DNA from: Candidatus Saccharimonadota bacterium
GTDB taxonomy: Bacteria; Patescibacteriota; Saccharimonadia; Saccharimonadales; Saccharimonadaceae
DNA: 64,000 bases
NCBI GenBank assembly: GCA_017511205.1
Contig: JAFWLE010000002.1
Coordinates: 1 to 64,000 of the forward strand
Direction of reading: 5' to 3'
A model generated the notes under the pieces. It was not told the DNA's origin. It worked only from the letters and a program-made list of their open reading frames with translations, and made no database searches. The translations under genes were made by a program, and so were the position numbers. The stretch's first letter is position 1. Every line of letters starts with the position of its first letter. Of the stretch, positions 5,401 through 42,194 are shown piece by piece.

Positions 5401-5591
5401 GCTCTCGGGACTGGGCTAGACTTTTGCTAGCGCAAAAGTCTTCCGCCAGGCGTCGGCTCAAAAAATCCCAGATCAAAATCTGGGATTTTTGTTCACCTCC
5501 TACGGCGGGCGAACCAGCTTCGCTGGTTCTCACCCAGTCCCCAGAACAGTAATTAATAAAAATATGACCCTTCGGGTCATCTTTTTATTAA
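5401..5591 (-). other. tRNA-Asn-adjacent structured element (element A)
   Basis: Lies directly 3' of tRNA-Asn on the minus strand. A degenerate copy of the tRNA 3' end (5401-5417, 16/17 identical to 5594-5610) pairs 9 bp (5407-5415 with 5533-5541) around four further helices: 5419-5427/5432-5440 with a TAGC loop, 5443-5447/5504-5508, a 13-bp hairpin 5461-5473/5478-5490, and 5511-5518/5522-5529. A hairpin of 17 bp (5553-5562 and 5564-5570 with their partners) ends next to the tRNA CCA. Junction bases GGCGTCGGCTC (5449-5459) and CTCCTAC (5497-5503) recur in the element at 41932-42117. Confidence 0.75.
5553..5591 (-). terminator. Hairpin terminator directly after tRNA-Asn
   Basis: Near-perfect inverted repeat with a 10-bp A/T outer part and a 7-bp ATGACCC core, one internal mismatch and a TTC loop. 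On the minus strand it follows the encoded CCA without a gap and finishes in ATTTTTATTAA, so it fits an intrinsic terminator for the tRNA. The hairpin is symmetric enough to work in both directions. Confidence 0.65.
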
Positions 5592-5666
5592 TGGCTCCCG
5601 GGACTGGGCTCGAACCAGCAACCTCGAAGTTAACAGCTTCTTGCTCCACCATTGAGCTACCCGGGA
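5592..5666 (-). tRNA. tRNA-Asn(GTT)
   Basis: 75 nt including an encoded CCA (5594-5592). Acceptor TCCCGGG pairs with CCCGGGA; the D arm is GCTC/GAGC; the anticodon loop is CTGTTAA with anticodon GTT; the variable loop has 5 nt; the T arm is GCTGG-TTCGAGC-CCAGT. The top anticodon-stem pair (27-43) is an A-G mismatch. The discriminator base is G, as usual for tRNA-Asn. Confidence 0.96.
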
Positions 5667-40018: not shown

Positions 40019-41599
40019 ATGACAAATACAAATAAATATATTATTATACCAGCTAGTCTAGTAGGCTTGACTACTACAGCTGGTTTCGCTCTCGCTTCTA
40101 CTTATGTTTCCGCAGACGACGTAGTAGATAACGTAGCTATCACAGTACCAATATCTTGTACTATGAGCGGTACTGGTATGAATACTCATACCAAAGAAGT
40201 AGTAAATGGTACTTATGAAGAAAATATCGGTACTACTACTATGAAAGTACTATGTAATGATAACTCTGGCTTTTCTATTTATGCTACAGGCTTTACTAAT
40301 GAAGAGATTGGAGAAACTAATAGTAATAAACTAGTAGGAACAAATGCATCAGGAAACGCTACTATAGATACTGGTATAGCTAAGTCAGGTAATACTTCTA
40401 ACTGGGCTATAAAACTAGCTACTAACTCTCAAGCTACTTATCCAATTACTATTACAAGTGATACTGAAGGACCATTCTCTAGCTACCATACAGTTCCAAG
40501 TACTTGGACTAAAGTAGCCACTAGACTAGCTGGTACTGATATAGGAGCAGTAGCAGAAGGATCTACTATCACTTCTACTTATGCTGCTTATATCAGTTCT
40601 ACTCAACCTGCTGATACTTATACTGGTAAAGTTAAATATACTTTAGTTCATCCGAATGATGCTCCAGCTCCTACTCCACCATCACCAGTTACTCCTCCTA
40701 CTTCCTGTACTACTCCAGTACCAAACTTCACTTATATGCAAGATCTAACATCAGCCAATAAAGCTTCAGTTCTAGCTTCTATGACGGAAGATGCTCAGTA
40801 CTATTTAGCCGATAAACGTGATGATAAAACCTACTGTGTCGCTAAATTACGTGACGGTAATATTTGGATGACACAGAACTTAGACTTAGATATTGATTCT
40901 GAAACCACCTATACCAGCGCTGATACAGATATTTCTTCTGACTGGAGTCCAGCAGCTTCTACTCACGCCACTGGTGATACGGAATGGGAAAGTTATGATG
41001 AAGTAGATAATCCAGATGGTGGAGACTACTACCACCCAGAATCCTATGATCCAGGTGACTTATACTGGAACGGTACTGCAGCATATTATGATAACGAAAC
41101 AGACTGTGTAGCAGGTGGTGGCACCTGGGATAGCGATAATAGTATGTGTAATCTTATTGCCTCTAGCGGAGATTCTCACTATCATTTAGGTAATTATTAC
41201 AACTGGTCTGCCGCAGTAGCTACAAATGACACTAGCTCCTACACCACACAGTACCAAGACCTAGATCGTTCCATCTGCCCAGCCAACTGGACCTTACCAA
41301 AGAGCGGTAATAATACGTCAAACGGTTCTTTCCAGTACCTAGTTACTCAATATGGTTGGGATAGTGATGAACATAAGATGACTAATCCAAACATCTGGAA
41401 TACTCCTATTAAAAGTGCTCTTGCCGGCTCCTGGAGCGGTTCGCTGGGTGGCGTTGGCAGCAACGGCTACTTCTGGTCGCCAGTTGTGTTCGATAGCTAC
41501 AGCGCGCACAACCTCGACGCGGACGGCGATGGCTACGTCGCCCCTGTCGGCACCTACGGTCGCTACGCCGGGATTTCGGTGCGCTGTATATCGCGTTAG
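40019..41599 (+). CDS. Secreted surface protein with C-terminal FISUMP domain
   Basis: 526 residues. Signal peptide ~1-33 (hydrophobic core then YVSADD). Residues ~35-215 are a beta-rich domain shared with the gene at 63470. A Pro/Thr linker (PAPTPPSPVTPP) leads to a 'Fibrobacter succinogenes major paralogous' (FISUMP) domain: GNIWMTQNLDLD near 281, SICPANWTLPKSG near 419, GYFWSP near 481 and the final GISVRCISR. Codon use changes abruptly in the last ~58 codons: the body is A/T-rich, the end G/C-rich and full of NNC codons, as in variable regions of diversity-generating retroelements. Likely an adhesin of the cell surface. Confidence 0.85.
   Translation: MTNTNKYIIIPASLVGLTTTAGFALASTYVSADDVVDNVAITVPISCTMSGTGMNTHTKEVVNGTYEENIGTTTMKVLCNDNSGFSIYATGFTNEEIGETNSNKLVGTNASGNATIDTGIAKSGNTSNWAIKLATNSQATYPITITSDTEGPFSSYHTVPSTWTKVATRLAGTDIGAVAEGSTITSTYAAYISSTQPADTYTGKVKYTLVHPNDAPAPTPPSPVTPPTSCTTPVPNFTYMQDLTSANKASVLASMTEDAQYYLADKRDDKTYCVAKLRDGNIWMTQNLDLDIDSETTYTSADTDISSDWSPAASTHATGDTEWESYDEVDNPDGGDYYHPESYDPGDLYWNGTAAYYDNETDCVAGGGTWDSDNSMCNLIASSGDSHYHLGNYYNWSAAVATNDTSSYTTQYQDLDRSICPANWTLPKSGNNTSNGSFQYLVTQYGWDSDEHKMTNPNIWNTPIKSALAGSWSGSLGGVGSNGYFWSPVVFDSYSAHNLDADGDGYVAPVGTYGRYAGISVRCISR
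41424..41599 (+). other. Candidate hypervariable region (DGR-like VR)
   Basis: The 3' end of the surface gene. About 20 of the last 36 codons are NNC, spread over Phe, Ser, Tyr, His, Asn, Asp, Gly, Val, Ala and Thr, as expected if AAC codons of a template were randomised at adenines, while GISVRC stays conserved. A 7-bp hairpin (41616-41622/41626-41632) follows the stop by 16 nt. No template repeat or reverse transcriptase is seen in the window. Confidence 0.5.
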
Positions 41600-41931
41600 C
41601 GTTTTTGTTACATTGATGATAACAATTATCATAAGGAGGCTTCTGGGATAAACGTTTAAATCTATTCTGGATCTAATCATGGCTTTTATGCTTTAGTCTG
41701 TTTTTGGAAGCGTCATTATAACGCAAATCTCATTGCTAGTTTTGCCCCTGTCTTATCGCTGGTACTTTGTATACATTTTTCGCACTCTAAAAGTACACTC
41801 TGATATTTTCCGATAAATGAGACGAGGCGAAAAAGTTATTCTGAGACATAGCTTAGCATAATAAACTAAAAACTTCCCTATAAATAGGGAAGTTTCTGGT
41901 CTGGAGTGACTCTCCAGTTGTAACATTTTAA
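41600..41931. other. Gene-free region after the surface gene
   Basis: About 330 bp, A/T-rich, no credible ORF. It holds the small hairpin at 41616-41632, an AAGGAGG-like sequence near 41633 that serves no ORF of length, the terminator-like hairpin 41871-41894, and a 6-bp hairpin CTGGAG/CTCCAG at 41900-41916. Confidence 0.5.
41871..41894. terminator. Terminator-like hairpin
   Basis: AACTTCCCTA pairs with TAGGGAAGTT around TAAA. On the minus strand it is followed by TTTAG, on the plus strand by TCTGG; it could end transcripts coming from the tRNA-Glu locus. Confidence 0.55.
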
Positions 41932-42117
41932 TGGTAGTCTCGGCGGGAACTTGTTTTCGCTAGCGCGAAAACAATTCGTGGGGCGTCGTCTCGGAATATC
42001 TAAAACAAGTTTTAGATATTCGCTCGACTCCTACCACGAACGAACCCTACGGGTTCGTTCCCGCCTCGAGCCATTAGAGAAATAAAATAAGGCCCTTCGG
42101 GTCTTCTTTTATTTCTC
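41932..42117 (-). other. tRNA-Glu-adjacent structured element (element B)
   Basis: Directly 3' of tRNA-Glu on the minus strand. Position 41932-41948 repeats the last 17 nt of the tRNA exactly, CCA included (42118-42134). Helices: 41942-41950/42057-42065; 41951-41960/41965-41974 with a TAGC loop; 41975-41981/42034-42040; 41994-42006/42009-42021 (13 bp); 42041-42047/42051-42057. Then the hairpin 42076-42117. Junction motifs GGCGTCGTCTC (41982-41992) and CTCCTAC (42028-42034) match element A at 5401-5591, while stem sequences differ but keep pairing. Confidence 0.75.
42076..42117 (-). terminator. Hairpin terminator directly after tRNA-Glu
   Basis: AGAGAAATAAAA and its inverted copy flank a CCC-TTC-GGG core. 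It adjoins the tRNA CCA and ends in an A/T-rich tail on the minus strand, like the one after tRNA-Asn. Confidence 0.65.
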
Positions 42118-42194
42118 TGGTAGTCTCGGCGGGATTCGAACCCGCGATTGCCTGGATGAGAACCAGGAGTCCTAGACCGCTAGACGACGAGGCC
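42118..42194 (-). tRNA. tRNA-Glu(CTC)
   Basis: 77 nt with encoded CCA. The anticodon loop TTCTCAT gives CTC; anticodon stem CCTGG/CCAGG; T arm GCGGG-TTCGAAT-CCCGC; D arm GTC...GAC. The acceptor GGCCTCG/CGAGACT has a G-T first pair, usual for tRNA-Glu, and a C3-A70 mismatch, which is not usual. Confidence 0.94.

Follow-up and report, generated by a model that had tools for sequence, protein, structure and literature searches.

The locus behind tRNA-Glu(CTC) raises the question of why the end of a tRNA gene should be repeated a short distance downstream of it. The window analysed here (64,000 nucleotides) is part of contig C9 of a 0.8 Mb genome in 12 contigs. A sequence-only reading had reported that the last 17 nucleotides of the tRNA, CCA included, recur on its 3' side, and had proposed integration into the tRNA gene together with a possible folding switch. 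The recurrence is exact and lies where it had been placed (Table 1). On the letters themselves, a 17-nucleotide match that is so close and in register with the CCA is no coincidence.

Table 1. Parts of the unit behind tRNA-Glu(CTC), and the second core copy in the window.
Feature	Position	Strand	Basis or remark
tRNA-Glu(CTC)	42118..42194	minus	intact, CCA encoded; 3' end TCCCGCCGAGACTACCA
S0, final 17 nt of tRNA-Glu(CTC)	42118-42134	minus	
T0, long hairpin flush with the CCA	42076..42117	minus	inverted repeat; GC core with AT-rich arms, terminator-like
AS, near (antisense) arm	42057..42073	minus	predicted fold; local-tRNA specificity in 80 units
Hairpin A (GAACCC-GTA-GGGTTC)	42042..42056	minus	predicted fold
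Conserved core hairpin	41976..42039	minus	covariance model 84.1 bits, E 5e-22 (itself among the sequences used to build the model); covariation, 41 sequences
Hairpin C (TTGTTTTCGC-GCTA-GCGAAAACAA)	41951..41974	minus	predicted fold
S1, exact tRNA 3' end copy with CCA	41932..41948	minus	
Second terminator-like hairpin, native downstream DNA	41868..41897	minus	
Second core copy, behind tRNA-Asn (5592-5666, minus)	5443..5508	minus	covariance model 60.6 bits, E 3.7e-15 (outside the model's training set)

The body of the unit has a folding energy of -72.4 kcal/mol, against a mean of -39.2 kcal/mol for shuffled sequences (z = -9.2). Its predicted shape is a closed four-way arrangement comprising an outer stem (GGCGGGAAC/GTTCCCGCC), hairpin A, the core hairpin and hairpin C. 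In this predicted fold the near arm (42057-42065) pairs with positions 41942-41950, and the TGG at 42071-42073 is able to pair with the far CCA. In hairpin A the 5' strand of the tRNA T-arm is present both as complement and as copy, with a GTA loop between them, and the core hairpin (GTAGGA ... GACGCC) shows an internal loop, a tandem GA and a bulged base. In folds of the complete transcript, the near arm can pair with the T-arm of the tRNA instead; its complementarity to both copies of the tRNA 3' end, pointed out earlier, is borne out.

The 215 nucleotides past the far copy (41717-41931) align gap-free, at 76% identity, with the sequence that directly follows the CCA of the genome's tRNA-Arg(TCT) gene (G000:C7, locus L223), and that tRNA has no unit behind its CCA. 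Because of this match behind a unit-free tRNA, the unit can be placed between the tRNA-Glu CCA and its normal downstream DNA, as an insertion of 186 nucleotides with the far CCA in the place of the tRNA CCA. The two matching sequences themselves form a separate shared repeat with its own terminator.

The unit is not a one-off integration scar but a member of a family that had escaped the sequence-only reading. A BLAST search with the body against its own genome led to three further tRNA genes, and a pattern of the core led to more; by inspection, a unit stands behind roughly 19 of the genome's 43 tRNA genes. The one behind tRNA-Asn includes an antisense arm of its own, and the tRNA-Asn 3' end is repeated there in diverged form. 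The core pattern, with the fixed letters GTAGGAG..GAG..GA..CGACGCCC, was scanned over 84,980 species genomes and matched at least 117 stretches; seven GC-rich matches were dropped as chance by inspection, about six being expected by our own estimate. Approximately 123 core copies were examined, of which 87 stand behind tRNA genes (16 isotypes) on the same strand, a figure that has the strand built in since only upstream tRNAs on the same strand were counted. The matching records are named Candidatus Saccharibacteria and derive mostly from ruminant gut. Over 149 genomes of the order, a covariance model gave matches confined to genera of the same family, with one borderline exception. The core family is almost only found in one family of ruminant-gut Saccharibacteria.

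Across 41 sequences, 93.8% of the cells in the core are paired, against 63.8% after shuffling, and 17 of its 20 pairs show changes on both sides. For the outer stem of the core, a separate count gives 89% against 56%. This pairing is not an artefact of the scan pattern. The invariance of the unpaired letters is partly a matter of construction, because the pattern fixed them. The covariance model also recovers cores that depart from the pattern, for example that at 5443-5508. Another type of core (CAAGGAAATGAG...CGAATGACGCAG), built on a plan like that of the main one, occupies the same position behind tRNA-Glu in L146, L148 and L166. A known RNA family as the identity of the units was rejected, as Rfam gave no match to the units (for RtT, in a cmscan of four unit loci) and its convincing matches were tRNA and rRNA. 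The literature searched on Saccharibacteria repeats and on tyrT yielded nothing directly on point.

Units at tRNA genes share a common order. A flush hairpin, comparable to T0 in most of the units examined, is followed by the antisense arm, the T-arm complement, a short loop, a T-arm copy, the core and a second hairpin, and the unit closes with the 3' strands of the T-arm and the acceptor stem, through to the CCA. Hairpin A tracks the local T-stem: it reads GAACCC-GTA-GGGTTC behind tRNAs with GGGTTC, GAAC-GTA-GTTC behind tRNA-Gly (AGTTC) and GAACTCC-GTA-GGAGTTC behind tRNA-Val (GGAGTTC). The antisense arm does likewise, with a mean duplex energy over 80 units of -16.6 kcal/mol for its own far copy and -10.5 kcal/mol for the far copies of other isotypes (p = 3e-14). 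Coreless units of 60–90 nucleotides and other unit types obey the same local-tRNA rule. Some loci hold arrays of at least two units, whose terminal hairpins give them a cassette-like look, and L078 contains a perfect tandem duplication of 182 nucleotides. The unit behind tRNA-Arg(CCG) bears the 3' end of tRNA-Arg(TCG), located 2.3 kb away, so a copied tRNA end can originate from another gene. In L006, L007, L011 and L082 the usual short flush hairpin behind the CCA is replaced by a long alternative one of about 90–100 nucleotides, for example GGCGCCATCTCGGCG...GCACTTCG...GGCGCC. At L128, tRNA-Thr(GGT) is followed in tandem by a pseudo-tRNA whose 3' end is intact but whose body contains additional hairpins; it may represent a stage between tRNA duplication and a unit.

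Fixed presence in all relatives, which the earlier reading had named as part of what would refute it, is not what is found, because the presence of the unit varies among relatives and many orthologous sites are empty. At orthologous tRNA-Glu(CTC) sites in about 28 species, the downstream content ranges from nothing through a short unit, a variant-core unit or the present type to stacks, and the far copy agrees with each host's own tRNA variant. In the closest of the relatives sampled, whose neighbouring protein is 76% identical, the far copy is reduced to a decayed trace. The acceptor stem of the tRNA itself contains a C3-A70 mismatch and a G1-U72 pair, both also present in this nearest relative (L144). 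The C-A mismatch is confined to these two genes among the tRNA-Glu(CTC) acceptor stems compared, and replacement of the tRNA 3' end by the element was rejected, the acceptor stems of other species being compensated on both strands.

Cores also occur outside the layout just described. In L022, L042, L047 and L098 the core stands flush behind the tRNA CCA and the repeat is ACCA or a few more bases. Others lie upstream of promoter -35 boxes with TTGAC on either side; four promoter cores (L009, L015, L028 and L140) are located at CIRCE-type palindromes. Further copies were found in 23S leaders (L014 and L052) and past the stop codon of an EF-Tu-like gene (L103). At least 11 copies fall within long open reading frames that stay open throughout, in both orientations and several frames, and the genes concerned, judged by their translations, appear to be recX-, der-, pheT-, valS- and queA-like, among others. 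For valS, 54 of 60 genomes of the genus were matched, and the insert of about 70 amino acids is absent in all 54. By comparison of sequences, the core hairpin is thus an insertion with empty sites in relatives, both at tRNA 3' ends and in at least one gene. A single RNA-methyltransferase-like gene (L054) holds two core copies within its open reading frame.

The predicted effect on the tRNA was assessed by folding 68 read-through transcripts to minimum free energy. With both arms present, 19 of them retain a complete cloverleaf; the number is 8 with the far copy removed, 13 with the near arm removed and 54 with both removed. According to this prediction, each arm alone would be a hazard, the two together would cancel slightly, and the tRNA would be best off without the unit. 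The earlier suggestion that the far copy acts as a decoy survives in part: the arms do offset each other slightly in the predicted folds, but on these counts the far copy would be at best a partial antidote to the unit's own hazard. This hazard would be masked if transcription stopped at the flush hairpin or if the tRNA folded co-transcriptionally. The regulatory folding switch proposed alongside it finds no counterpart here. Where far copy and tRNA differ, the near arm prefers neither (p = 0.95), so that tracking of the far copy instead of the tRNA was likewise rejected, and nothing shows a switch.

No genes were found inside the units, in agreement with the earlier remark that the body is too small for a recombinase gene. 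Gene-bearing cassettes between the repeats were also rejected: no gene-bearing unit was found and all repeat spacings are below about 520 nucleotides, apart from one that is explained by a second tRNA gene. The genome has a single recombinase, inferred to be XerC/D-like from its length and conservation. Mobilisation by an IS200/IS605 or RAYT activity, prompted by the TTGAC flanking the promoter copies, was dropped because the genome has no Y1 gene (PF01797; 0 in the own genome and 1 of 30 in the genus genomes). A reverse transcriptase as motor was rejected, as there is one in this genome and none was found in the core carriers G002, G003, G010 and G018. Carriage by phages or plasmids was rejected, no unit matches being present in phages, plasmids or viral contigs.

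Three known systems resemble parts of this picture. A small RNA termed rtT or RttR, freed from tRNA read-through transcripts, has been described behind E. coli tyrT/tyrV, where the repeats encode the small ORF tpr. Behind tyrV of E. coli K-12, at the rttR locus, there are three 178-nucleotide units. Each ends in the last 19 nucleotides of tRNA-Tyr, has an antisense arm (GGGGAAGGAT) that pairs with ATCCTTCCCC of the tRNA-Tyr end copy, and carries the T-arm copy AAGGTTCGA, or a near form, ahead of a structured insert. The Saccharibacteria units are alike in ending in the 3' end of the preceding tRNA with its CCA (17 nucleotides here), in the antisense arm pairing with that repeated end, in forming tandem arrays and in placing a T-arm copy before a structured insert. 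They differ in that their core sequence is another one, in line with the missing RtT match at the four loci, and in that the E. coli repeats serve one tRNA isotype only. To our knowledge, no copies of the E. coli tyrT/tyrV repeats occur in genes. In E. coli SK1144 (L279) the next gene follows the tRNA-Tyr pair after 16 nucleotides and the 178-bp repeats of K-12 are absent.

The second system comprises the Rickettsia palindromic elements (RPE), in-frame palindromes in housekeeping genes with no known transposase. In-frame inserts in genes, in several frames and with empty homologues, are common to both. The Saccharibacteria units, however, are mostly at tRNA 3' ends and have target-matching arms. 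The RPE of R. conorii end in CGTC (PMC3733652), and the complementary letters, GACG, stand at the end of the present core. Families with this tag have a short stem of 8–9 bp, a loop of 4–5 nucleotides, the CGTC and a 3-nucleotide tail, and lack a dedicated transposase, while REPs end in GTAG (PMC3733652). The present core has GACG at its 3' foot but a longer stem with an internal loop. Like REPs it shows an unpaired GTAG at the hairpin foot and many dispersed copies; unlike them it is larger, combines GTAG at one foot with GACG at the other, and occurs in a genus in which 29 of 30 genomes have no Y1/RAYT gene. Elements of tyrosine integrases share the distal direct repeat of a tRNA 3' end, although the units have no integrase gene inside, and MITEs derived from IS200/IS605 differ in that the genome here has no Y1 transposase to act in trans. 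The most fitting place for the family is among the palindromic repeats, as a new variant that is tyrT-repeat-like at tRNA ends; with either known family this is a resemblance rather than an established formal membership.

Based on these observations, the unit is probably one copy of a gene-less, selfish family of palindromic repeats, in a form anchored to tRNA ends and comparable to RPE and to GTAG/CGTC-tagged REPs, and would not regulate the tRNA. This reading builds on the insertion itself, the target copy, the inverted copy, the core conservation, the turnover and the gene-free interior. The units would spread by copying to new sites without an enzyme of their own, the motor being either a host or foreign activity in trans or template switching at hairpins. 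The far copy may be a target duplication of variable length and the near arm an inverted copy that holds the unit as a closed hairpin, and tRNA ends and flexible protein loops could tolerate the unit by absorbing it. Several points count against this reading. Neither a transposition event nor an enzyme or an intermediate was seen. Target duplications range from about 4 nucleotides (ACCA) to about 20, which is unlike a normal transposase. Random insertion would not produce so strong a link to tRNAs (87 of about 123 copies), which could reflect an RNA function, and strong covariation in the core would be expected equally of a selected RNA.

It is more doubtful, though possible, that the family represents a novel class of gene-less mobile elements, inserting at tRNA 3' ends and rewriting both outer arms for each target, with the E. 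coli tyrT repeats as a distant example. If so, arm rewriting, as an inverted plus a direct copy, would make every tRNA gene end accessible to one and the same core.

It is unlikely that the units instead encode small RNAs freed from tRNA read-through, with arms that shape processing and a core that binds a protein or ligand. The architecture equals that of the E. coli tyrV units, the core covaries and has unpaired invariant letters, the tRNA strand is shared in the 87 tRNA-linked cases, and a second terminator-like hairpin lies past the unit. However, the invariance of the unpaired letters is partly built in by the search, the same-strand figure is built in by the counting, and both the type and the presence of the unit turn over among species at one locus. 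Cores also lie upstream of -35 boxes and antisense inside genes, where a tRNA promoter would make no such RNA.

A rather improbable account does without any mobile element: tRNA and terminator hairpins would cause replication slippage and template switching, which repeatedly duplicate tRNA 3' ends and create inverted copies, with the core as a lucky passenger. It would suit the tandem S|T0-X-S|T0 arrays, in which the terminator is duplicated as well, the perfect tandem copy and the coreless units, and template switching is a proposed origin of palindromes (PMC6649704), but it leaves one covarying core at unrelated sites, genes included, unexplained.

Least probable is that the units are remnants of integration by a tyrosine integrase in trans, with the far copy as attR and a minimal or decayed body: the direct repeats from near the T-loop through CCA and the existence of empty sites agree with it, but a single core is common to 16 isotypes, the near arm is an inverted target copy, copies lie in ORFs and promoters, the sole recombinase is the conserved XerC/D-like one, and neither a gene-bearing unit nor a match in phages, plasmids or viral contigs was found. 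Of the integration first suggested for this locus, the insertion-like character and the direct repeats left behind stand, whereas a site-specific recombinase is doubtful, because one core serves 16 tRNA isotypes, promoters and coding sequences.

The selfish-repeat reading connects three things that have been treated separately, namely the puzzling tRNA-end repeats at E. coli tyrT, the palindromes inserted in frame in Rickettsia genes and the REP palindromes with their tags. A single family combines all three here, in a reduced genome whose only recombinase is XerC/D-like and which lacks a Y1 transposase. In such genomes, a copied tRNA 3' end alone is not evidence of a genomic island. Strain comparison can test how the units spread, since their arms correspond to each tRNA and there are many empty sites.

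Elsewhere in the window, an ORF on the plus strand (40019-41599) ends in FWSPVVFDSYSAHNLDADGDGYVAPVGTYGRYAGISVRCISR and has a composition-shifted 3' end, reminiscent of the variable region in targets of diversity-generating retroelements. The single reverse transcriptase of the genome is located at G000:C7:16196.
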